DNA of 35,506 nt, from contig JAJUGB010000010.1 in NCBI GenBank assembly GCA_029268595.1, forward strand, positions 1 to 35,506, written 5' to 3'. Shown in pieces: positions 6,006 through 32,922 of the stretch (the first letter of the stretch is position 1; each line of letters opens with the position of its first letter). A program made the position numbers and the translations under genes. The notes under the pieces are model-generated. The model saw only the letters and a program-made list of their open reading frames with translations. It ran no database searches and was not told where the DNA came from. The DNA comes from Alcaligenaceae bacterium. Its GTDB lineage: Bacteria > Pseudomonadota > Gammaproteobacteria > Burkholderiales > Burkholderiaceae_B.

Positions 6006-7001
6006 ATGGGCTTACTTATTGAAGGTCAATGGAGTGACCAGTGGTACGACACGAAATCGACGGGCGGCAAGTTCGTTCGAACTGAGGCGCAGTTCAGAAA
6101 TTGGGTTACCCCCGATGGCGCTCCGGGCCCTTCGGGGGCTGCGGGTTTCAAGGCCGAACCGGGCCGCTACCATCTTTATGTATCCTTGGCCTGCCCGTGG
6201 GCGCACCGAACTCTTATCTTCCGCAAACTGAAGGGCCTGGAAGACATGGTGGGGCTATCGGTGGTCAATCCCTATATGGGGCGACAGGGCTGGGCCTTTG
6301 AACCGGCCGAAGGCGTTGTGCCGGACCATGTAAATCAAGCCCGTTATGTGCATCAGCTGTATACGCTGACGGAGCCGCAATATACCGGTCGCGTCACTAT
6401 TCCCATACTCTGGGACACAGAGCGCCGGGTCATTGTCAGCAACGAGTCGTCCGAAATTATCCGTATGTTCAACAGCGCATTTGACGGTGTGGGGGCTCAG
6501 CCGGGCGACTACTACCCGGTCGATCTTCGAGCTCAAATTGACGAGATCAACCAATTCGTCTACACGCGAATCAATAACGGCGTGTACAAAGCCGGTTTCG
6601 CCACTACACAAGAAGCTTATGAAGAAGCTGTGACCGATTTGTTCGAGGCACTCGAGAAGGTCGAGCGGCGCTTGCTTAAGCAACGTTATCTGACGGGCTC
6701 GCGTCTTACAGAAGCCGACTGGCGGCTTTTCACGACGCTGGTGCGATTCGATCCGGTCTATGTGGGGCACTTTAAGTGCAACATCAAGCGACTGGTCGAT
6801 TTTCCGGCACTATGGGGTTTTACTCGCGAGCTGTACCAGCACCCCGGGGTAGCGGAGACGGTGAATTTCTCGCATATCAAGCAGCACTACTATCGGAGTC
6901 ACCCCACCATCAATCCCAGCGGGGTCGTTCCAGTTGGGCCGATCCTGGATTGGAACGCCCCCCACCAGCGGGAAGTCGTACAGGCCAAGGCCACGGTGTA
7001 G
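6006..7001 (+). CDS. Glutathionyl-hydroquinone reductase (YqjG/Xi-class glutathione transferase)
   Basis: A 331-residue cytosolic enzyme of the Xi class of glutathione transferases, which reductively removes glutathione from S-glutathionyl-hydroquinones. The hallmark catalytic motif CPWAHR is present with C63 as nucleophile. The family stretches NPYMGRQGW-like, GRVTIPILWDT, SNESSEIIRMFN and a C-terminal all-helical GST domain (about 160-300, including LTEADWRLFTTLVRFD) follow in order. The length is normal. GAAGG precedes the ATG and the gene begins 15 bp after cueR, suggesting read-through transcription. Copper stress oxidises quinols and glutathione, so a role beside the copper genes is reasonable, but that link is inference. 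Confidence 0.92.
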   Translation: MGLLIEGQWSDQWYDTKSTGGKFVRTEAQFRNWVTPDGAPGPSGAAGFKAEPGRYHLYVSLACPWAHRTLIFRKLKGLEDMVGLSVVNPYMGRQGWAFEPAEGVVPDHVNQARYVHQLYTLTEPQYTGRVTIPILWDTERRVIVSNESSEIIRMFNSAFDGVGAQPGDYYPVDLRAQIDEINQFVYTRINNGVYKAGFATTQEAYEEAVTDLFEALEKVERRLLKQRYLTGSRLTEADWRLFTTLVRFDPVYVGHFKCNIKRLVDFPALWGFTRELYQHPGVAETVNFSHIKQHYYRSHPTINPSGVVPVGPILDWNAPHQREVVQAKATV

Positions 7002-7074
7002 CGGTCACGCCAACAGCGGGCGCAGACGGCACACGGATTGCTTCCTCCTGTTTTGTCTTTCAGCAGGAGCATCC

Positions 7075-8838
7075 ATGGAAACTGTCTCGGATTTCATGTT
7101 GACTCGCTTGTCCGAGTGGGGAATCAAGCGAGTCTTCGGTTACCCTGGAGACGGAATCAACGGCCTCATGGGCGCATTCGCTCGCACTGCTGCGCCCATG
7201 GAGTTTGTGCAGGTGCGGCACGAGGAAATGGCCGCGTTCATGGCCTGCGCGCATGCAAAATTCACCGGACAGGTCGGGGTCTGCTTGGCGACTTCCGGCC
7301 CGGGCGCCATACACTTGTTGAACGGTCTGTACGATGCGCGGCTAGACCATCAGCCGGTAGTCGCGATAGTTGGGCAGCAGGCACGTTCAGCCATTGGGGG
7401 CGATTACCAGCAGGAAGTCGATCTGGCGAATCTGTTCAAGGACGTCGCCCGGGACTTCGTTCACGTTGCCAACAGCCCAACACAAGTTCGACATCTGATT
7501 GACCGCGCCATGCGAATTGCCATGGAGCGCCGCACTGTGACGGCCATTATTGTTCCAAACGACGTGCAGGACTTGCCCGCTGTGCCGGTGCCGCCTCGCG
7601 AACATGGCACAGTTCGGACCGGCATCGGATATACCCACCATGCCAACGTACCAGATGCGGCCGGACTGTCGCATGCGGCAGATATCATCAATAGCGGTGA
7701 ACGTCCGGCCATCCTGGTCGGCGCGGGTGCTCTACACGCCACCACAGAAATCATGCGGATTGCCGAACTCACTGGTGCAGGGGTGGCGAAAGCGCTTCTT
7801 GGGAAGGCGGCGGTGTCCGATGAGTTGCCCTATGTTACTGGCGCCATCGGTCTGTTGGGCACGCAGCCGAGCTGGCAGATGATGAATGAGTGTGACCGTC
7901 TGCTGATGGTCGGCACGTCTTTCCCTTACGGAGAGTTCCTGCCGCCCGAAGGCAAAGCGCGCGCGGTGCAGATCGATCGTGACGGCCGTAAGCTGAACCT
8001 GCGCTACCCGGTCGAAGTGGGACTGGTTGGCGATAGCAAAGCCACCCTGCAGGCGCTGATTCCCTTCCTGGAGCAAAAACATAACGCCAGCTGGCGCAAG
8101 CGTATTGAGGATAACGTTGCCGACTGGTGGAAGAAGATGGAAGCCCGGGCAATGATTGAGGGGAAGCCGGTGAACCCTCAACGAGTCTTCTGGGAGCTGT
8201 CTCCTCGTTTGCCCGATAACAGCATCGTCACATGCGATTCGGGGTCGGCCGCTAACTGGTTTGCCCGAGACATCAAAATGCGTCCCGGCATGATGGCATC
8301 CTTGTCGGGTGGGCTGGCCACCATGGGTTGCGGTGTTCCGTATGCGCTTGCCGCAAAACTGGCCTATCCCGATCGTCCGGTATTTGCGCTGGTGGGGGAC
8401 GGTGCGATGCAGATGAACGGCATCAACGAGCTCATCACTATCGCCGATACATGGACTCACTGGAGCTCGCCGACTTTGGTCGTCGCCGTTTTGCATAACG
8501 GAGATTTGAACCAGGTGACCTGGGAGCAGCGCGCAGCCGGCGACCCGCGCTTCGAAGATTCACAACTGCTGCCTGAATTCGATTATGCTGGGTATGCCGA
8601 GTTGCTTGGTCTGCGCGGGGTCAAAGTCACTTCCACGGCCCAAGTAGTGCCCGCCTGGGAGGCGGCAATGCATGCTGATCGGCCGGTTGTTCTTGAAATC
8701 ATTACCGACCCAGAAATCCCGCCGGTGCCGCCGCATGTGCCGTTCAAGCAGGCCACCGCCTATCTTCAATCGTTGCGTCGCGACTCAGCTCGGTCTGCGG
8801 TTCTGCGAGCAACCATACAGCAATGGTGGGCACGATGA
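7075..8838 (+). CDS. Thiamine diphosphate-dependent enzyme, pyruvate oxidase (PoxB)-like
   Basis: A 587-residue enzyme with the three-domain architecture of the acetolactate synthase/pyruvate oxidase family. The Pyr domain has the cofactor-activating glutamate in RHEEMAAF (E50) and the substrate-side stretch CLATSGPGAIHLLNGLYDAR. The central Rossmann-like domain (about 190-330) contains RPAILVGAGA. The C-terminal PP domain has the Mg-ThDP motif GDGAM about residues 441-445 plus the HNGDLNQVTWEQR loop. PoxB oxidises pyruvate to acetate and CO2 and passes electrons to quinone at the membrane. Which 2-oxo acid this one uses cannot be read. AGCAGGAGC precedes ATG 7075; the longer upstream reading is spurious. 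Expression in stationary phase or stress would fit its neighbours (inference). Confidence 0.85.
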   Translation: METVSDFMLTRLSEWGIKRVFGYPGDGINGLMGAFARTAAPMEFVQVRHEEMAAFMACAHAKFTGQVGVCLATSGPGAIHLLNGLYDARLDHQPVVAIVGQQARSAIGGDYQQEVDLANLFKDVARDFVHVANSPTQVRHLIDRAMRIAMERRTVTAIIVPNDVQDLPAVPVPPREHGTVRTGIGYTHHANVPDAAGLSHAADIINSGERPAILVGAGALHATTEIMRIAELTGAGVAKALLGKAAVSDELPYVTGAIGLLGTQPSWQMMNECDRLLMVGTSFPYGEFLPPEGKARAVQIDRDGRKLNLRYPVEVGLVGDSKATLQALIPFLEQKHNASWRKRIEDNVADWWKKMEARAMIEGKPVNPQRVFWELSPRLPDNSIVTCDSGSAANWFARDIKMRPGMMASLSGGLATMGCGVPYALAAKLAYPDRPVFALVGDGAMQMNGINELITIADTWTHWSSPTLVVAVLHNGDLNQVTWEQRAAGDPRFEDSQLLPEFDYAGYAELLGLRGVKVTSTAQVVPAWEAAMHADRPVVLEIITDPEIPPVPPHVPFKQATAYLQSLRRDSARSAVLRATIQQWWAR

Positions 8839-10777: not shown

Positions 10778-13399
10778 CTAATCTTTAAAGGCGTCAATCA
10801 TCGCCTTTTTCAAGGTCTTCCGTTGGCCCGCATAGCCCTCCCAAGGATCTGGACGGGAAGTGTAGAAGCGCAAGACGTTTCTCAAATTGAATAAGTCGCT
10901 TCTCAAATCCTGGTCGGGGCTTAAATCTTCCCACGATAGCGGCACTGATACAGGTGCACCTTGGCGAGCGCGCAGCGAAAACGCACTAACCGCCGTAGCG
11001 CCATTGCCATTGCGTAAATAATCGACGAAGATCCGGTCCTTGCGCCGAGCCTTGGACACCGTTGCGGTGAATCGATCCGGCATTAAGCTCGCCAAGTGCG
11101 AAGCGAGGCCACGCGCAAAGGCCTTGACCGTGTCCCAATCATGGGTGGCTCGAAGCGGAGCCACCAAATGCAGGCCCTTTCCACCCGTCGTCTTAAGAAA
11201 AGGTGTGAGGCCGGTTTCTTGCATCAAGGTTCGGGCCAGCAGGGCCGCCTCCACAATGGTTTTCCAGCTTACATTCGGGTCCGGGTCCAGGTCCAGTGTG
11301 ATGCGGTCGGGTCTGTCTATTTTTGGCATGCGGGAGCCCCAGGTGTGGAATTCAATCACACCGCGCTGGGCCAGCGCTGCTGCTCCCAAAGGGTCTGTGA
11401 TGATGACGTCGCCCTCGTCCCGTGAGACTCCTTCCGGCAAAGAGCCTGGCAAGTGCTTTTGAAAGAAGCACGTGGACTGTGTACCGTCAGGGCAGCGGAG
11501 CAGGGCGATATGGCGACCCTCAAGGTGGGGAAACATGAGATCAGCCACGGCTTCGTAGTACTCGACCACCTCACGCTTGGTAATATCCGGTGCACGAAAG
11601 ACCAGGCGCTTCGGGTGGCTAACTCTCGTACTTCCAACGAGCGGGCCGTCGTTTCTGGACGCGACATGCGATGGGTCGACGATAGAGGTCCGTTCGGCGT
11701 CTTTGCTTCCCGCCTCGGTCTTCGATTTTGCGGTCTTTTTGCCCGTGGTCGGTGGTGGTTCGGAGGCGGACTCGGGCACAACGTCGCTCGGCGGCTTGTC
11801 TTCGCGCAAGCCTCTAAAAGAAGCTTGTCGCAGCAATTTTTCTTCAGTCCACCCTGCGTACTCGACGTCAACGACCAGTTCAGGTTGAACCCATTGAATG
11901 ACTTCCGATTTACTGCTTCGGCTAAAGCGGCCTTTTCCGCTGGGCAGCGACTCAAACGGGCTCTCATCGATATGGCGTGTCTTCAACAAATCGTGAATGC
12001 TTTTGAGCGTGGCTGTTGAAAAGCCGGTGCCAACCCGCCCCGTATACCGCAGTTGCTTGCCTTCCCATAAGCCAAGTAGCAATGAGCCGAAATGAGAGCG
12101 AGAGCCGGATCCCGACGTGTATCCGCCCACAACAAACTCCTGCCTGGGGCGACATTTCAGTTTCAGCCAGTTCATATTGCGCCCGGCCGCATACGGCGCG
12201 TCGAGCTTCTTGCACAACAAGCCCTCCAGGCTCAGTCGACAGGCTTCCGTCCAGGCGGCGTTGCCTTCAGTCGCATCAGCAACTGGCAGGCGTTGTGTGA
12301 GCATAATGGGCGCGTCGGGCGGCACTTCTGCCAGCACTGTCTCGAGCAGCGCTTGACGTTCTGCCAGCGAGCGGCGCCGCAAGTCGTGTCCATTCCAGAA
12401 AAGCAGGTCAAAGGCGACGAAGACGAGGTGTTCGGCCTTGCCATCAAGAGCTTGTTGCAGCGCCTGGAAATTCGATACCCCATGCTCGTCAAAAGATACT
12501 ACTTCGCCATCCATCCACCCGTTGCCAAGTTTCAACTGACTGATACCATGGGCCAACTTGGACATCCGTGTGGTCCAGTCATTGTCGTTGCGGCTAAGCA
12601 AAACCACGTTGTCATTTTCTAGCCGGCAAAGAATTCGGTACCCATCGTATTTCACCTCGTACGACCAGTCTCCGCCGACTGGCGGGCGGCTGACAAGCGT
12701 CGCCAACTGCGGGCTGAGGCTTTGTGGCAGCCGCGCCTTGCCCCTTTTCTTCAAGATATTCTCGTCGAAGGCAGTATCGGCCGAAACCTCGGCAGCAGAA
12801 ACGTCCTCTGCAGACGAGGAGCCGTTCCCCGGCGAAGAACCTGTCTTTTTCTTTGCTTTCGGCTTGTCCTTGGCTGCCTTGATTGGCTCCTTTTCGGCGT
12901 CATAACCCGGAACGGCAAATTCGTCTTCGAGCTTTCGGAGCAGCCACTGATTATCTTCTTTGCTTGTCCTGAGCAACACCCAGGCGCCACCGAGCCGTCC
13001 TCCGCGTAGCCAGAAATGCAGGTGGCCCTTGGCAAGAGCCTTCACTGGGTCCCCCTTCGGCTCCCACTGGCCAGCATCCCAAATGTCGACATGGCCGGCC
13101 CCATACTGCCCGGCAGGAATATCGCCCTCGAAACCGCCGTACTCAATGGGATGATCTTCGACGTGGACTGCCAGCCGCTTGACCGAAGGGTCCATTGAAG
13201 GCCCCTTGGGAACCGCCCAGCTCACAAGAACCCCATTCAGTTCCAGTCGGAAGTCGTAGTGCAGTCGCCTGGCTTCGTGCCTTTGGATGACGTAGGTGAG
13301 TACTTGATCGTCTCTGACACCAGACTGTTCGGACCCGGACGGCTCGGAGGTCACATCAAAGCGACGCTTATTTCGATATTCTTTTAAGCTTGTATTCAA
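10778..13399 (-). CDS. ligD: ATP-dependent DNA ligase D (LigD: phosphoesterase-ligase-polymerase)
   Basis: An 873-residue three-activity enzyme of bacterial non-homologous end joining. Domain order is PE, LIG, POL. The 3'-phosphoesterase (about 35-160) has HEARRLHYDFRLE with H41, D49, R51 and later H83. A low-complexity linker (165-220) follows. The ligase has adenylated K250 in KYDGYR, EGLLCKKLDAPY, and an OB fold ending near SFRGLREDKP. A second linker precedes the primase-like polymerase (about 590-850), with catalytic D703 and D705 in LDLDPDP and D793 in FVDYLRN. The start codon is TTG, supported by GGAGG five bases upstream and no usable ATG. It lies 12 bp after ku and would be recruited to ends by Ku. 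All three active sites look intact. Confidence 0.96.
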   Translation of the reverse strand: MNTSLKEYRNKRRFDVTSEPSGSEQSGVRDDQVLTYVIQRHEARRLHYDFRLELNGVLVSWAVPKGPSMDPSVKRLAVHVEDHPIEYGGFEGDIPAGQYGAGHVDIWDAGQWEPKGDPVKALAKGHLHFWLRGGRLGGAWVLLRTSKEDNQWLLRKLEDEFAVPGYDAEKEPIKAAKDKPKAKKKTGSSPGNGSSSAEDVSAAEVSADTAFDENILKKRGKARLPQSLSPQLATLVSRPPVGGDWSYEVKYDGYRILCRLENDNVVLLSRNDNDWTTRMSKLAHGISQLKLGNGWMDGEVVSFDEHGVSNFQALQQALDGKAEHLVFVAFDLLFWNGHDLRRRSLAERQALLETVLAEVPPDAPIMLTQRLPVADATEGNAAWTEACRLSLEGLLCKKLDAPYAAGRNMNWLKLKCRPRQEFVVGGYTSGSGSRSHFGSLLLGLWEGKQLRYTGRVGTGFSTATLKSIHDLLKTRHIDESPFESLPSGKGRFSRSSKSEVIQWVQPELVVDVEYAGWTEEKLLRQASFRGLREDKPPSDVVPESASEPPPTTGKKTAKSKTEAGSKDAERTSIVDPSHVASRNDGPLVGSTRVSHPKRLVFRAPDITKREVVEYYEAVADLMFPHLEGRHIALLRCPDGTQSTCFFQKHLPGSLPEGVSRDEGDVIITDPLGAAALAQRGVIEFHTWGSRMPKIDRPDRITLDLDPDPNVSWKTIVEAALLARTLMQETGLTPFLKTTGGKGLHLVAPLRATHDWDTVKAFARGLASHLASLMPDRFTATVSKARRKDRIFVDYLRNGNGATAVSAFSLRARQGAPVSVPLSWEDLSPDQDLRSDLFNLRNVLRFYTSRPDPWEGYAGQRKTLKKAMIDAFKD

Positions 13400-13411
13400 G
13401 CGGCCCTCCGA

Positions 13412-14410
13412 TCAGCCGGTCTTGCGCCGGCCACCGGTGGAAGAATTGCTCGCCGTCTTTCGTGCCGTAGAACTGCGTGTGGACTTGGTGGCGGCCTTGC
13501 TCTTCGTAGCGGCAGTGCTACTACTACGCGCGGACTTTGCTCCGCTGCTCTTCTTTGCAGCCGTAGCCGTCTTGCGAGTGGCTGATTTAGGACTGGAGCT
13601 GGTCTTAGAGGACCCGCTACGCTCCTCAATGCTGCGTTTCAGCATGGACATCAGATCGATGACCTTGGCCGGTGCACGGCCCTCGGAATCGGGATCCGGC
13701 TCTTCCAAGGTATGGGTTTTTCCTGCCTCGATTTTGTCTTCTATGGTTCGCAATAGATCTTCCCGATACTCGTCCTTGTACTGTTCGGGGTCCCAGTCCT
13801 GGGTCATGTCTTCTACAAGGCGGGTCGCCATTTGCAGTTCGCGCTTGGCCGGAGCGTGTTCGCCTTTGCCTTCCGGGAGGTTCAGATCACCGATGTCGCG
13901 AATCTCGTTTGCATAGCGCATGGTCACCATAAGCAAGACGTCGTCCAAAGGCATAAGGGCGGCAAGGTGTTGTTTGGTGTGCAAGACCACTGAGGCAATG
14001 GCTAACAAGCCGCTGTCCCTGAGCACTTCGCGAAACAGGACATAGCCTTTTTCGCCCCGTCTATCTGGCGCAAGGTAATAGGGGGTATCAAAGTAATAGA
14101 TGGGGACCTGGTCCCGGTCAACGAAATTCAGGACATCTATGGTTTGCGTCGCGGCAACGTTGGCGCGGCGAAAGTCCTCGTCGTTGAGAAAAACGTAATC
14201 GCCTTTCTCGTATTGGTAACCCTTGACGATGTTCTCGGCTTCAATGGGTTTGCCTGTCCTCTTGTTGATTCTTTGGTAGCCCACCGGCGAGTTGTCACGC
14301 TTGTCTATCCAGTCGAAATCCAGGCGCTGGGACTGCGTTGCCGGGTGGACCACAATGGGGACGTTAACCAAGCCAAACGATATGGCGCCTTTCCAGATGG
14401 TGCGCGGCAT
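13412..14410 (-). CDS. ku: Ku, DNA double-strand-break end-binding protein
   Basis: A 332-residue bacterial Ku homodimer subunit that threads onto broken DNA ends and recruits LigD. The core starts with the diagnostic MPRTIWKGAISFGLVNVPI and runs to about residue 263 (includes ENIVKGYQYEKGDYVFL and LLMVTMRYANEIRD). From about 264 to the end is a repetitive Lys/Ser/Ala/Thr tail resembling histone H1 or PaKATA repeats, known in other bacterial Ku proteins to add DNA binding. AGGAG precedes the ATG by six bases. It lies 42 bp after topoisomerase IB and 12 bp before ligD, on one transcript. Confidence 0.96.
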   Translation of the reverse strand: MPRTIWKGAISFGLVNVPIVVHPATQSQRLDFDWIDKRDNSPVGYQRINKRTGKPIEAENIVKGYQYEKGDYVFLNDEDFRRANVAATQTIDVLNFVDRDQVPIYYFDTPYYLAPDRRGEKGYVLFREVLRDSGLLAIASVVLHTKQHLAALMPLDDVLLMVTMRYANEIRDIGDLNLPEGKGEHAPAKRELQMATRLVEDMTQDWDPEQYKDEYREDLLRTIEDKIEAGKTHTLEEPDPDSEGRAPAKVIDLMSMLKRSIEERSGSSKTSSSPKSATRKTATAAKKSSGAKSARSSSTAATKSKAATKSTRSSTARKTASNSSTGGRRKTG

Positions 14411-14452
14411 GATGGACTCCTGCGTTTACCTGGAGCGAAGCAAAAGGCGTAC

Positions 14453-15499
14453 CTACTGAGGAAGTGGGGCCGTAGTCGACTTTCTTTTGCGCCTGCGTTG
14501 CGCCTTGAGAAAGGCGAGGAAGCGCCGTTCCGCGGAACGAAGCTCACTGGGCGCGCGAGTTTCGACGGGTGCAGGAAGTGTCCCGTCTAAATACGCTTCT
14601 ATTACGGAGGGATGGATATAGCATGCGCGGCACACGGCCGGGGTGTTGTTCAAGCGCTTGGCCACTTGCTTGACCACTTCGACCACCGCTTTCTGACGAT
14701 TGTTGGCGTCAGCGTAATCCTTCTGCAGAGACGAGAAGGCATAGACTGAACCGGCCCAAGTCCTGTAGTCCTTGGCGCTAAAGTCGCCACCTGTCACTTT
14801 TTTCAAGTAGTTGTTGACCGAATGAGAGGTGACGGCATGCAGGCGGCCATCGCTGCCTCGGTAGTTGAAAAGCTGCTGGCCCGGCAACTCCATGCAGCGC
14901 TTTACGATACGAGCCAGCCTGGCGTCCCGTACCGTTACATCGTGCCGAACGCCACTTTTGCCCCGAAAGCATAAGCGCAGTTCGTTGCCCGATACTTTGG
15001 CATGACGCCGCTTCAGGGTGGTGAGGCCATAGGATTGATTTTCGAGGGCATATTGCCGCGTGCCGATGCGGATGTGGGTGACTTCAAGAAGGCGGACCAC
15101 CACGGCAACCACCTTGTCGGCATCCAGCCGACGGCGGGTGAGGTTTTGACGTACAGCGCGACGTATCCGCGGCAGGGCTTGTCCAAATTCCAGCAAACTT
15201 TCGTATTTGTTTTGGCCGCGCTGCTGCGCCCAGGCCGGATGATAGCGATACTGTTTGCGCCCCCGGGCATCTCTACCCGTGGCCTGCAAATGGCCGTTGG
15301 GGTCTGGGCAGATCCAGACGTCTCGGTACGCGGGCGGAATGGCCAGCGCCTTGATGCGCTTTAAAGTGGCCGGGTCTGTGATACGGCGCCGGCTGGCATC
15401 GTAATAACAAAAGCCCGATGCGGTCCGCCGCCGGCGTATGCCCGGCTGCACATCACTCACATAGCGCAGCTCGTCGCACTCAGGCAAAACCTCGGGCAC
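14453..15499 (-). CDS. DNA topoisomerase IB (poxvirus-type)
   Basis: A 348-residue type IB topoisomerase, which relaxes supercoils through a 3'-phosphotyrosine intermediate. The N-terminal DNA-clamp region includes the RDARGRKQYRYHPAW stretch. The catalytic domain holds THIRIGTRQYALEN with the family arginine, GKSG, DYRTWAG, and the nucleophile Y294 in CRACYIHPSVIEAY. A basic tail rich in RRRKRKS closes it. The start appears to be GTG at 15499 with only a weak ribosome site. It follows a 60-codon ORF by 5 bp, so coupled translation is likely. Bacterial TopIB genes are often beside stress genes. A direct role in end joining is possible but unproven. Confidence 0.94.
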   Translation of the reverse strand: MPEVLPECDELRYVSDVQPGIRRRRTASGFCYYDASRRRITDPATLKRIKALAIPPAYRDVWICPDPNGHLQATGRDARGRKQYRYHPAWAQQRGQNKYESLLEFGQALPRIRRAVRQNLTRRRLDADKVVAVVVRLLEVTHIRIGTRQYALENQSYGLTTLKRRHAKVSGNELRLCFRGKSGVRHDVTVRDARLARIVKRCMELPGQQLFNYRGSDGRLHAVTSHSVNNYLKKVTGGDFSAKDYRTWAGSVYAFSSLQKDYADANNRQKAVVEVVKQVAKRLNNTPAVCRACYIHPSVIEAYLDGTLPAPVETRAPSELRSAERRFLAFLKAQRRRKRKSTTAPLPQ

Positions 15500-29237: not shown

Positions 29238-29269
29238 CACAGGCCCCGACTCTTTTATTGGAGCCCCTA

Positions 29270-29599
29270 ATGGTATACGCAGAGTATCAATCATGCATCG
29301 AGGCCTGTTACGACTGCGCGGCGGCCTGCGATTACTGTGCCAGCGCCTGCCTTCGTGAAGAGAACGTCGAAGAGATGGCCGCGTGCATCAAACTGGACAT
29401 GGACTGTGCACAGATATGCCGGCTCGCTGCAAGTTTCATGGCGCGCGGCAGCGAGTATGCTGCTCCTTTATGTCAGGTTTGTGCTGAAATTTGCCGCGCC
29501 TGCGCCGCTGAATGTGCTCGGCACTCGCACGCCCATTGTCAGCGATGCGCGCAGGCGTGCCGACGATGTGCAGACGAATGCGCGCGCATGGCGGCCTGA
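29270..29599 (+). CDS. Cysteine-rich four-helix copper-binding/storage protein (DUF326, Csp-like)
   Basis: A 109-residue protein with 19 cysteines, most in CxxxC or CxxC steps along helices (for example CIEACYDCAAACDYCASAC and CQRCAQACRRCADEC). This is the pattern of the copper storage proteins Csp1/Csp3, whose four-helix bundle packs many Cu(I) ions through inward-facing thiols. It has no signal peptide, so it is cytosolic and Csp3-like. ATG 29270 follows GGAG by eight bases; the in-frame TTG at 29258 lacks that support. It is divergent from cbpA. No CueR-type box was found upstream, unlike copA and copZ. Zinc or another thiophilic metal is an alternative. Confidence 0.87.
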   Translation: MVYAEYQSCIEACYDCAAACDYCASACLREENVEEMAACIKLDMDCAQICRLAASFMARGSEYAAPLCQVCAEICRACAAECARHSHAHCQRCAQACRRCADECARMAA

Positions 29600-29609
29600 A
29601 ACCAGCCAC

Positions 29610-29984
29610 CTAGTCAGCATTGAAGGCAATGGTGCTTAACAGAGCCAGGGCGGGTTGTCGTGTATCCAGGCGCGTGTGCTGTACCACTATGGGATGGCTG
29701 GATTCGATGACGCTCGCATAGGGAGTGTCCAGCGGAATAGGTTCCGGGTCTTTCAGGTCGTTGAAGCGCAGATGGACCGTGCGGCGGGCGGGTACAGTAA
29801 CGTGATAGGGTCCCGCCGGCTCGCGGTCGGTAAAATAAATGGTGATGGTCACCTTGGCATCCTGGGTACCTGTATTCAGAAGGCAAGCGGTCTCATGGCT
29901 TAAGAATCGGGGGTCGTCTCCATTCGTGCTTTGGGCCGGAATATATCCTTCCGGTATAGCCCAATAACGGTGTCCTATGGGCAT
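29610..29984 (-). CDS. Homologue of Anabaena sensory rhodopsin transducer (ASRT family)
   Basis: A 124-residue soluble protein that I recognise as the ASRT family. It begins with YWAIPEGYIP, then FLSHETACLLNTG, VTITIYFTDREPAGPY, TVPARRTVHLRFNDL, ASVIESSHPIVVQHTRLD and ends ALLSTIAF. The length is nearly that of Anabaena ASRT (about 125). ASRT is a tetrameric beta-rich protein that binds a microbial rhodopsin, and its fold has been likened to carbohydrate-binding proteins. No rhodopsin lies in this window. AGGAG fixes the start. It is the last gene of a GH15-SDR-ASRT run, which suggests a rhodopsin-independent, perhaps sugar-related role (inference). Confidence 0.88.
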   Translation of the reverse strand: MPIGHRYWAIPEGYIPAQSTNGDDPRFLSHETACLLNTGTQDAKVTITIYFTDREPAGPYHVTVPARRTVHLRFNDLKDPEPIPLDTPYASVIESSHPIVVQHTRLDTRQPALALLSTIAFNAD

Positions 29985-30015
29985 TGCGGTCTCCTGTATA
30001 GCGGTTATCGAGTGA

Positions 30016-31023
30016 CTAACGCCGGCGGGCGACGGACCATATCATCGCAGCGGCCGCCAGACTGGCGGGCACTACCCAGGCTCGGTTCTGCACCAGCCAG
30101 AGGGCCGCACTAAAGTTGCGGGCCTCTTCATCAAATCGCCCGTGTGCGCCCATATCGCCAGGTAGCGCTTCAAACAGGTTGTCCGGCCTGTCTCCGGGAT
30201 CGGGCTGCGCGCGTACCTGCTGGCCGCTATAACCCGTCATGGCCAGGTAGCGGTCTGCCAGTCCGGGCGCCAGCTTTTGTGCCCACAACGCGAGCAGGGT
30301 GGGCGCTCCGACCGAGACCTGACGTCTTTTGTGGCGACTCGCCCATTCGATGGCACGTGCTGCCACCTCGGGTTGAAAGATGGGCGGGACCGGCTGGGGT
30401 CGGTGATCCATATGGTTGCGGGCCCAACTGAATTGTGGGGTGTTCACCGCTGGCAGCTGTACTTCGGTCAGTCGAATCTTGCTGCCTTCGTGCAGCAACT
30501 CGGACCGTATGGAGTCGGTAAACCCCTTGATTGCGTGTTTCGCACCGCAGTAAGCTGACTGTAAAGGGATGCTGCGATATGCCAGTGCGGAGCTGACTTG
30601 TACTACCACGCCGTGGTTGCGCGGACGCATGCGCTTCAAAGCCGCCATGGTTCCGTATACATAGCCGAGGTAAGTAACGGCGGTCACCCGATGAAACTCT
30701 TCGGGTCTCAACTCGCTGAAGCGGGAGAATACGGTGACCATGGCATTGTTCACCCATACGTCAATGGGCCCGAGCTCCTGCTCGACTTTGGCAGCCGCCG
30801 CCTCAACGGCTTCCGGGTCGGACATATCTACGGACACTGTGCAGGCTTTGCCGCCCAAATCGAGCACTTCTTGATAAGCCGCGTCTAAACCGTCTTTCCC
30901 GCGCGCCAGCAAGCCGATATGGTCCCCTCGTCGAGCAAACTCCCGCACCACAGCGCGACCCACGCCGGCCGATGCACCGGTCACGACCACGACACGCGAA
31001 GAGGAATTCTGGCGAATCTTCAT
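30016..31023 (-). CDS. Short-chain dehydrogenase/reductase with C-terminal membrane anchor
   Basis: A 335-residue classical SDR. The Rossmann cofactor motif is TGASAGVG (15-22), with NNA at about 92-94. The catalytic set is S145, Y158 and K162 in VSSALAYRSIPLQSAYCGAK. After the about 250-residue core it has an extension ending in a hydrophobic WVVPASLAAAAMIWSVARRR segment that should anchor it in the inner membrane. The arginine after the nucleotide-binding strand (ARGKDGL) favours NADP(H). GGAG six bases upstream sets ATG 31023. It lies between a GH15 enzyme (72 bp) and the ASRT homologue (31 bp) on one strand. The substrate is unknown. Confidence 0.9.
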   Translation of the reverse strand: MKIRQNSSSRVVVVTGASAGVGRAVVREFARRGDHIGLLARGKDGLDAAYQEVLDLGGKACTVSVDMSDPEAVEAAAAKVEQELGPIDVWVNNAMVTVFSRFSELRPEEFHRVTAVTYLGYVYGTMAALKRMRPRNHGVVVQVSSALAYRSIPLQSAYCGAKHAIKGFTDSIRSELLHEGSKIRLTEVQLPAVNTPQFSWARNHMDHRPQPVPPIFQPEVAARAIEWASRHKRRQVSVGAPTLLALWAQKLAPGLADRYLAMTGYSGQQVRAQPDPGDRPDNLFEALPGDMGAHGRFDEEARNFSAALWLVQNRAWVVPASLAAAAMIWSVARRR

Positions 31024-31095
31024 TGAGTGCTCCAAAAAAGTTAAAGACATGCATGCATATAGAAGAGGCTCGAAGCGCCCGGAATACGCGGCACG

Positions 31096-32922
31096 TCATG
31101 CGCTCCTCGAAAACGGATGAGAGGCTGGCATTTCCCCCTGCTGCGTTAATTCGCTTGCTTCAGCTTCATCTTTAGCAAGAAGGCGAGCGGTGTTCACCAT
31201 GGCGACATGTGTCAGCGCTTGCGGAAAATTTCCCAACATTCTTCCCTCCGAAGGGTCGTACTCTTCAGAAAACAGACCCACATCGTTGCGCAGCGTCAAT
31301 AAGCGTTCGAAGAGTTTGCGGGCCTCGTCACGGCGGCCCATCAATAAGAGCGCATCGGCCAACCAGAACGAACATGGGAGGAAAGCTCCTTCCCCGGGAG
31401 GCAGGTCATCGACATGCGCGTCATGTGCGTAGCGCAGCAGTAAACCGTCAATGGCAAGTTCTTTCCGTATGGCTTCCACAGTGTTTACGAACCGGGCGTC
31501 ATCAGGTGGCAGGAAGCCGATTTGCGGCATCAGTAGCAGGCTGGCATCAAGATGTTCTGAGTCATAGGACTGGGTGAATGCGCGCCTGTCCGGGTGATAG
31601 CCGCGTACGCATACTTGCTGGTGTATTTGATCACGGGTTGCAATCCAATCATCTACGGGCCCCTCGAGGTTGTATGTCTGGGCGTCTTTGATGGCCCGGT
31701 CAAAGGCGAGCCATGCCATCACCTTTGAATGGGTGAAATGCCGTCTTTCGCCCCGCACTTCCCAAATACCTTCATCAGGTTCGTCCCAATGATCGGACAG
31801 GTAGCTGAGCAAATTCACTTGAATGTCCCACGCTTCGGGTTCGGGATCGAGCCCCGACCTGCGTGACAGGTGCAAGGTATCCATGAGCTCGCCGTACACA
31901 TCCAACTGCCGCTGATTGGCTGCCGCATTACCGATGCGCACCGGCACAGCGCCAAAGTAGCCGGGCAGCCACGGAACCTCGAACTCTTGCCAAAGTCGTT
32001 CGCCTCGAATGCCGTAGACGATTTTCACATCTTGTGGTCCGCCGGCTGCCCGTTGCAGCCATTCGCGCCATGCCACGGCCTCGTTTCGATAACCGCTAAG
32101 CAGTAGAGCGTTCAGGGTAAAGGCAGCATCGCGCAACCAGCAGTATCGGTAATCCCAATTGCGAGGGCCTCGCCACTGTTCGGGCAGGGAGGTCGTCGGT
32201 GCCGCAACGATTCCGCCCGTCGGCTTGAATATCAGCGCTTTGAGCGTGATCAAAGATCGTTGCACCGCTTCGCCCCATTCACCGCCAAAAAGGCATCGCC
32301 CGGACCAGTCGTTCCAATAGCGTAAGGTGGTATCCAGGGCCTGACGGGGATCAAGTCTGGGCGGAGGCGGCTCATATGAATAGTGGTAGCCCAAGGTGAA
32401 GGTGATCTGCTCTCCTGCCTTTATCTGAAAGCGGGCCGTCGTATTCGTATCGTCGCCCTGCAAGGGGACATCGCTGTGCAACTCCATGGCATGCGGCCCT
32501 GTCGTCGCGACGCGCGAATGACGCTGATTGCGCACCCAGGGGACCACCGCGCCGAAGTCAAAGCGGACGATGAGCTCCATGTACATGTTGACCACCCCTT
32601 GGACGCCACGAACGATTCGAACCACGTCCTGTCGCTTGTCGAAGGGCGGCATGAAGTCAATAACCGTGACTTTGCCGGTGTTCGTCGTGAAGTGGGTTTC
32701 TAGAACCAGGGTCGGCCCGCAGTAACCGCGTGAGCTTTCAAGGGCGCCCCCTTCAGGGGCAACCAACCAGCGACCGTGCTCCGGCCTTCCCAATAGAGCA
32801 GAAAAGCATGCGCCGGAATCAAAATGGGGCACGCATAGCCAATCTATAGAGCCATCGCGTCCAATCAGGGCTGCTGTGTAGCCGTCTCCGATAAGGGCGT
32901 AATCCTCGATAGGTAGTGGCAT
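31096..32922 (-). CDS. Glycoside hydrolase family 15 protein (trehalase/glucoamylase-like)
   Basis: A 608-residue enzyme of family GH15. The N-terminal beta-sandwich (about 1-210) begins with IEDYALIGDGYTAALIGRDG and SIDWLCVPHFDS. The catalytic (alpha/alpha)6 barrel has NWDYRYCWLRDAAFTLNALL, the acid glutamate region DEGIWEVRG and the base region LFSEEYDPSEGRMLGNFPQA. Bacterial members are trehalases or glucoamylases/glucodextranases acting on alpha-glucosides. With no signal peptide it is cytosolic, which suits trehalose or maltodextrin turnover after osmotic stress. ATG 32922 has GGAG close upstream. It probably leads the operon with the SDR and ASRT genes. Confidence 0.92.
   Translation of the reverse strand: MPLPIEDYALIGDGYTAALIGRDGSIDWLCVPHFDSGACFSALLGRPEHGRWLVAPEGGALESSRGYCGPTLVLETHFTTNTGKVTVIDFMPPFDKRQDVVRIVRGVQGVVNMYMELIVRFDFGAVVPWVRNQRHSRVATTGPHAMELHSDVPLQGDDTNTTARFQIKAGEQITFTLGYHYSYEPPPPRLDPRQALDTTLRYWNDWSGRCLFGGEWGEAVQRSLITLKALIFKPTGGIVAAPTTSLPEQWRGPRNWDYRYCWLRDAAFTLNALLLSGYRNEAVAWREWLQRAAGGPQDVKIVYGIRGERLWQEFEVPWLPGYFGAVPVRIGNAAANQRQLDVYGELMDTLHLSRRSGLDPEPEAWDIQVNLLSYLSDHWDEPDEGIWEVRGERRHFTHSKVMAWLAFDRAIKDAQTYNLEGPVDDWIATRDQIHQQVCVRGYHPDRRAFTQSYDSEHLDASLLLMPQIGFLPPDDARFVNTVEAIRKELAIDGLLLRYAHDAHVDDLPPGEGAFLPCSFWLADALLLMGRRDEARKLFERLLTLRNDVGLFSEEYDPSEGRMLGNFPQALTHVAMVNTARLLAKDEAEASELTQQGEMPASHPFSRSA

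Follow-up and report, generated by a model that had tools for sequence, protein, structure and literature searches.

What does a sensory rhodopsin transducer do in a bacterium in which no rhodopsin can be found? The question is raised by a stretch of 35,506 nucleotides from an Alcaligenaceae bacterium (assembly GCA_029268595.1, contig JAJUGB010000010.1, positions 1 to 35,506; hereafter the window), in which a homologue of the Anabaena sensory rhodopsin transducer (ASRT) is encoded behind a GH15 enzyme and an SDR oxidoreductase. As the best explanation overall we tentatively propose that this ASRT is a sugar-binding auxiliary protein, acting on the enzymes linked to it and requiring no rhodopsin. 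The central idea, of ASRT as a sugar sensor with sugar-enzyme neighbours, is mostly already in print (De Souza et al., 2009). What we add is the linkage of GH15, SDR and ASRT genes across a number of genera, the way in which partner modules around ASRT pair with or exclude one another, versions of the enzyme sets without ASRT, and a gene run in the cyanobacterium Spirirestis in which a rhodopsin, ASRT and sugar enzymes adjoin. The three genes of the window, in the order GH15, SDR, ASRT and all on one strand, are:

31096..32922, minus strand: GH15 alpha-glucoside hydrolase with a trehalase-like N-domain (PF00723, TREH_N)
30016..31023, minus strand: SDR oxidoreductase of the PRK07109 subfamily, with an alternative upstream start at 31050 and a weak hydrophobic C-terminal tail
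29610..29984, minus strand: ASRT gene (124 aa, PF07100), with an AGGAG ribosome site and the sequence SHETACLLN (SHExxCxxN signature)

The last of these is a full-length ASRT homologue, as a first-pass annotation made from the sequence letters had already recognized. PF07100 matches it with 182.2 bits (cut-off 25), residues 3-121 corresponding to profile positions 1-118 of 119, and phmmer matches it to the Anabaena ASRT 2ii7 (E = 1e-49) and to 1nc7 (E = 4e-17). The GH15 enzyme scores 274.9 bits against PF00723 (cut-off 22) and 68 bits against TREH_N, and matches the profile of the isomaltose glucohydrolase 5z3a with 41.5 bits. Its residues E388 and E553, which we take to be the catalytic acids of GH15, are invariant across 10 aligned ASRT-linked GH15s, the window copy among them. 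The description 'trehalase/glucoamylase-like' holds as a family label, the enzyme sharing PF00723 and the trehalase-like N-domain with the group of trehalases, isomaltose glucohydrolases and glucoamylases; unlike the GH15 trehalases, it falls far under both trehalase equivalog cut-offs (TreH1, 380 of 820 bits; TreH2, 326 of 1000 bits). The SDR assignment is likewise secure (NF005495/PRK07109, 476.6 bits, cut-off 264), but the membrane anchor that had been attributed to it is weak in this copy, where the best 19-residue Kyte-Doolittle mean, at the C-terminus, is 1.36; across 13 relatives of the SDR cluster the C-terminal values range from 0.27 to 2.59.

The spacing of the genes is tight. With the listed SDR start at 31050 the GH15-SDR gap is 45 bp, but the inner start at 31023 is preferred because a ribosome site, GGAGCACTCAATG, supports it, and this gives the 72-bp gap of the first-pass annotation. 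The SDR-ASRT gap is 31 bp and AGGAG precedes the ASRT ATG. Judged by this spacing, the trio is probably one transcription unit. Sigma-70-like sites between 29100 and 33300 numbered 0 against 2.5 expected from shuffles, which is weak evidence, and a search of the window with Rfam gave nothing at gathering score. A small Cys-rich DUF326 protein (29258-29599) is convergent with ASRT at a distance of 10 bp, and is weakly Csp1-like (37.7 bits, under the cut-off of 100).

No microbial rhodopsin was found in the window or, by profile search, in the rest of its 3.14-Mb genome, in agreement with what had been noticed from the window. The search itself works, since across the family it detected the gene in 15 of 268 genomes, in 14 of them above the curated cut-off, although 14 control genomes gave no match either; and as the window's genome is only ~91% complete, absence is not proved. 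None of the rhodopsin-positive family genomes is among the 10 with ASRT. Outside the family, rhodopsin was searched for in the genomes of 50 of the 69 ASRT loci taken from genome contigs, and was present in one, that of Spirirestis (L035), where it adjoins ASRT; a second Spirirestis rhodopsin lies on another contig. A rhodopsin elsewhere in conserved linkage with ASRT, which had been named as evidence that would speak against a light-independent role, is therefore confined to one of these 50 other ASRT genomes.

The grouping of the three genes recurs. By profile searches, ASRT is present in 10 and GH15 in 83 of the 268 family genomes, and GH15 is found in nine of the 10 ASRT genomes as against 74 of the 258 others (P = 1e-4). 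Five of the 10, from four of six genera, have GH15 and ASRT no more than 8 kb apart, for which the rough chance is 6e-10 if genomes are treated as independent; in the remaining five no GH15 is near ASRT. One relative (G129, locus L088) has GH15-SDR-ASRT in the same order as the window, with SDR and ASRT frames overlapping by 4 bp. Others have SDR-ASRT-GH15 (G226), ASRT-GH15 (G225) or a longer run of GH15, TPP enzyme, MR_MLE dehydratase, FAD/FeS oxidase, SDR and ASRT (G123). The possibility that the three genes are together only in this strain can accordingly be rejected, GH15 standing near ASRT in these five family genomes and, within 4 kb, in 11 of 84 loci.

These 84 ASRT loci (69 from genome contigs, nine from the family, five plasmid stretches and the window) were sorted manually into 58 groups, at genus level or coarser, on the basis of record titles and genus codes. 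Neighbours were counted by profile searches over all frames, with profiles built from neighbour clusters of the same loci, and the family names are those of cluster representatives. An alpha-glucoside enzyme occurs within 4 kb of ASRT in 37 loci (25 groups), an oxidoreductase (SDR, LLM, ADH or lactone oxidase) in 35 (27 groups), and at least one of 11 such families in 58 (43 groups). By family, the loci number 23 for GH13, 17 for LLM, 14 for SDR, 11 each for GH15 (window included), FAD/FeS, MR_MLE and PRK08273-type TPP enzymes, five for lactone oxidase, four each for GT20 and glucose-dehydrogenase-like ADH, and three for a glycogen-debranching-like enzyme (GDE). The loci with a family near and far number, respectively, for GH13 (23 vs 1), GH15 (11 vs 1), LLM (17 vs 1) and FAD/FeS (11 vs 0). 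Furthermore, the partners come in pairs: GH13 accompanies LLM in nine of 10 LLM groups (P = 2e-7), and GH15 accompanies SDR or ADH in seven of 10 GH15 groups (P = 0.004). They also exclude one another within 4 kb, where LLM is never seen alongside SDR or ADH (P = 0.02), or GH13 alongside GH15 (P = 0.08). In Nitrobacter and L014, a GMC oxidoreductase with gluconate 2-dehydrogenase subunit 3 takes the place of FAD/FeS. In a GH15 tree of ASRT-linked and unlinked copies, the linked ones do not form one clade (6 changes against a shuffled mean of 8.7, with 12 of 500 shuffles as low). From these gene arrangements, the partners of ASRT look like interchangeable modules (GH13 with LLM, GH15 with SDR or ADH, sugar-acid enzymes), which may be read as different ways of freeing sugar from alpha-glucosides and oxidising it step by step, ASRT being an accessory common to all of them; this chemistry is the one that the family names suggest.

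Several of the loci have features of their own. The plasmid stretches are a sample of five from 79 ASRT plasmid records, of which L094 is unannotated and from the same species as L089. On a conjugative IncFIB/IncFII plasmid of Klebsiella pneumoniae (L095), ASRT lies near an MFS sugar porter, an SDR, an MR_MLE enzyme and a GntR regulator, and this sugar cassette sits between Tn3 transposase and repA genes on the mobile plasmid. A phage collection gave no ASRT match. Four loci carry two ASRT paralogues, of which one is very divergent; the two stand on either side of a lactone-oxidase-like FAD enzyme in L042, L045 and L089, and come after it in L047. The ASRTs of Acidobacteriota (L069-L075) form a divergent clade, most of them near genes for a PIG-L deacetylase, a xylose-isomerase-like TIM barrel and SpoIIE-GAF proteins, a setting unlike that of the sugar-enzyme loci.

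The enzymes also occur together without ASRT. Among 20 hand-picked family stretches of about 8 kb around a GH15 gene unlinked to ASRT (three of these came from two genomes with ASRT at another place), an adjacent same-strand SDR was present in 10 and ASRT in none. One genome without an ASRT match (G105) carries, on one strand, a TPP enzyme, MR_MLE, an unassigned stretch, GMC, SDR and GH15. As like enzyme sets exist without it, ASRT looks auxiliary and optional to GH15-SDR sets, rather than an obligatory step.

In Spirirestis rafaelensis (L035:5186-9662), rhodopsin, ASRT, LLM and GDE genes form a same-strand run, in which the rhodopsin is closest to the Anabaena sensory rhodopsin (ASR) 1xio (491 bits) and overlaps ASRT by 4 bp, and the LLM oxidoreductase scores over the TIGR03885 cut-off. 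A limited literature search did not turn the run up, which weakly suggests that it is unreported. In a tree of ASRT sequences, the Spirirestis and Anabaena proteins group with Nostocales ASRTs from genomes without a rhodopsin match (SH-aLRT 94), and the same cyanobacterial set falls with GH13-linked cyanobacterial ASRTs (SH-aLRT 86). The tree has 121 columns, was built by a quick method and rooted on one long branch, and leaves out the broken or partial L078 and L079; the rhodopsin label of its Anabaena row comes from print, not from its DNA. The arrangement is most easily read as a late joining of the cyanobacterial rhodopsin to a protein that already had sugar enzymes as companions. Repeated loss of rhodopsin may be the alternative, as this tree cannot tell gain from loss. 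Of the light-independent ancestral role put forward in the first-pass annotation, the frequent sugar-related setting without rhodopsin agrees with light independence, whereas 'ancestral' is not proved by so short a tree rooted on one long branch.

Across 82 ASRT sequences W8, P16, S29 and N37 are invariant, and H30, E31, C34, R68, H71, R73, Q102, R105 and D107 are kept in at least 95%. The window ASRT, a single domain of 124 aa, has the signature of the solo ASRAH proteins (W8 and S29-H30-E31-T-A-C34-L-L-N37), and in 1NC7 the H and C of SHExxCxxN contact an ethanediol in the ligand pocket (De Souza et al., 2009; PMC2739507). Its AlphaFold model (pLDDT 91.2) is a beta-sandwich without a helix-turn-helix, and matches 1nc7 (Z 19.1, 1.3 A over 115) and 2ii7 (Z 16.8, 1.6 A over 102). 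The next matches, to GH32 (Z 6.7) and to carbohydrate-binding modules (Z 5-6.5), are at the level of common arrangements and not significant alone. There was no outstanding structure match outside the ASRT family, and that absence carries no weight.

On this basis, a mechanism can be sketched. GH15 would release glucose from an intracellular alpha-glucoside, and the SDR would oxidise that sugar or a derivative; the families are those identified by the profiles, and the substrates are our suggestion. ASRT, tetrameric and a small beta-sandwich in published structures, would bind a monosaccharide or aldonate from these steps in the conserved His/Cys pocket, and would adjust the linked enzymes or their expression without a rhodopsin. 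In other bacteria ASRT is attached to several seemingly interchangeable alpha-glucosidase/oxidoreductase sets, and rhodopsin coupling in cyanobacteria would be a later addition. Because the partners look interchangeable, the ligand is more probably a monosaccharide or aldonate common to them than trehalose or maltose, either of which had been suggested earlier; that suggestion does not fit a glycosidase partner that varies (GH13, GH15, GDE) and is missing in many loci. Nor is trehalose supported as an evident substrate of the GH15, given the sub-threshold trehalase equivalogs and the lack of an OtsA-type match in the window's own genome, a search limited to the OtsA type among trehalose routes.

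A number of results weigh against this proposal. None of the 11 neighbour families occurs within 4 kb in 26 of the 84 loci, including the acidobacterial clade and the rhodopsin-less Nostocales, although some of these loci are cut by contig ends and one (L053) has LLM and GH13 just beyond 4 kb. The near/far ratio is 1.0 for TPP enzymes (no enrichment) and 1.5 for MR_MLE (little), partly since longer runs place these genes at a greater distance, and PRK08273 is not co-distributed with ASRT in the family (over cut-off in three of 10 genomes vs 64 of 258). The P values for the exclusion of modules are weak and uncorrected. On the ASRT tree, the GH15 labels are distributed near-randomly (9 changes against a shuffled mean of 10.5; 48 of 500 shuffles as low). 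For eight of the 10 ASRT-free pairs, the profile of ASRT-linked SDRs gives the SDR only 261-270 bits, and this SDR is maybe of another subfamily. Finally, a demonstrated ligand for any ASRT was not found in the literature examined.

An alternative, which we consider unlikely, is that ASRT, GH15 and SDR are not direct partners but independent stress-survival genes that have collected in an island and share its stress regulation. It draws on further genes of the window, of which LigD, Ku and topoisomerase IB are context only; a TPP enzyme is listed with them:

6934..8838, plus strand: PRK08273 TPP enzyme (994.8 bits, cut-off 724), about 21 kb from ASRT
10778..13399, minus strand: LigD of non-homologous end joining
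13412..14410, minus strand: Ku
14453..15499, minus strand: DNA topoisomerase IB

The PRK08273 family adjoins ASRT in other loci. The LigD, Ku and topoisomerase IB genes form one same-strand run (10778-15499), and the window also carries a phospholipase-D-like protein, an LPG-synthase-like membrane protein, and a DnaJ/CbpA-like and CbpM-like pair, both members of which are under their NCBIfam cut-offs. Elsewhere, the G129 trio has Ku-LigD about 0.7 kb upstream, and in two Nitrospira loci LigD and ASRT are at most 4 kb apart. Ku is found in all 10 ASRT genomes of the family vs 102 of 258 others (P = 1e-4), a link that genome size, which was uncontrolled, may explain; by genera the figures are six of six vs 23 of 43 overall (P = 0.017). 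A general-stress (EcfG) promoter motif (GGAAC-N16/17-CGTT; consensus from PMC7083833 and PMC3892343) precedes a same-strand cassette gene in four of 13 alphaproteobacterial loci (L040:3289, L046:3286, L065:4438, L067:239) vs 0.37 expected (P = 6e-4, uncorrected), but the distance window was set after the first scan, and the absence of the motif from 70 other loci is a weak control, since chance also gives 0.37. Ku, topoisomerase IB and 'glycosidases' are listed among EcfG-dependent genes of Sphingomonas (PMC6599016); EcfG is, however, a factor of alphaproteobacteria and has no direct bearing on the window. Moreover, the pairing of modules exceeds what a shared island would give. We therefore treat a stress-survival or starvation setting for ASRT as a hint, a lead and not a result.

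It is also possible, if distinctly unlikely, that ASRT is itself a pathway enzyme, such as an aldose mutarotase or aldonolactonase working between glycosidase and dehydrogenase, with an active site of H30, E31, C34, H71, R73, R105 and D107. Its polar residues are indeed conserved in an enzyme-like manner, and its settings, which include isomerase-aldolase-kinase and monosaccharide ABC operons (PMC2739507), seem to us to resemble those of mutarotase genes. The window's own genome lacks a GalM, rhaM or RbsD/FucU match; Thermotoga maritima has ASRT and no rhaM match, though the RbsD/FucU and GalM families are matched there. GalM is missing from nine of 12 genomes with GH15-linked ASRT vs nine of 29 other ASRT genomes searched (P = 0.016, uncorrected and with kinship uncontrolled). 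However, like enzyme sets run without ASRT, and an SMP-30-type (SGL) match is present in 34 of 41 ASRT genomes, the window's own included, and lies about 3 and 7 kb from ASRT in two g31 genomes. The reported binding of Anabaena ASRT to DNA and to rhodopsin is also at odds with a purely enzymatic role. That ASRT is instead a DNA-binding regulator or DNA-bending protein of its own operon is improbable too: the Anabaena protein is reported to bind and loop DNA (KD 1.7 uM; PMC8660804), and two of the contact residues named there, R109 and Q110, occur in the window and are each conserved in 69 of 82 sequences, but the third, N113, is shared by 41 of 82 and replaced by L in the window, sequence dependence was weak, with random sequence looped more strongly, and the predicted fold has no helix-turn-helix.

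The sugar-binding proposal has clear antecedents. De Souza, Iyer and Aravind (2009; PMC2739507) proposed ASRT as an intracellular sugar-binding sensor and noted rhodopsin-less orthologues, with amylases, pyruvate oxidase, sugar-acid dehydratase/racemase and FAD oxidoreductase among the neighbours. The window ASRT resembles their solo ASRT/ASRAH proteins in being a stand-alone SHExxCxxN domain in an operon with carbohydrate enzymes and no rhodopsin, whereas the GH15 and SDR trio, the module pairing and exclusion, the ASRT-free GH15-SDR sets and the stress-gene setting are absent from their main text. The 2011 xenorhodopsin paper held that ASRT is not specific to photosensing. Compared with the Anabaena ASR-ASRT pair (transducer 2ii7, rhodopsin 1xio), the window has a full-length homologue of the same fold, but GH15 and SDR partners and no rhodopsin, either in the window or found in the genome. 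Thermotoga TM1070 (1nc7) is another rhodopsin-less ASRT beside sugar genes (isomerase, aldolase and kinase; PMC2739507), though only 36% identical to the window ASRT and in a different sugar operon.

ASRT was named after its rhodopsin partner, and recurrent, interchangeable sugar partners, the Spirirestis run and the minimal GH15-SDR-ASRT unit now make its role testable with three proteins. We think it very improbable that ASRT, instead of a transducer, is a small mutarotase- or lactonase-like sugar enzyme or a subunit tuning other enzymes, common to several interchangeable alpha-glucoside oxidation pathways and captured by rhodopsin in some cyanobacteria; if that were true, the ASR-ASRT pair would place sugar or glycogen oxidation, through LLM and a glycogen-debranching-like enzyme, under the control of light, and the 'sensory rhodopsin' would be a light switch on carbohydrate metabolism. 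If, as we tentatively propose, ASRT binds a sugar or sugar acid and alters the activity of GH15 or SDR, then Anabaena would have put a metabolic protein to a secondary use in its light responses.

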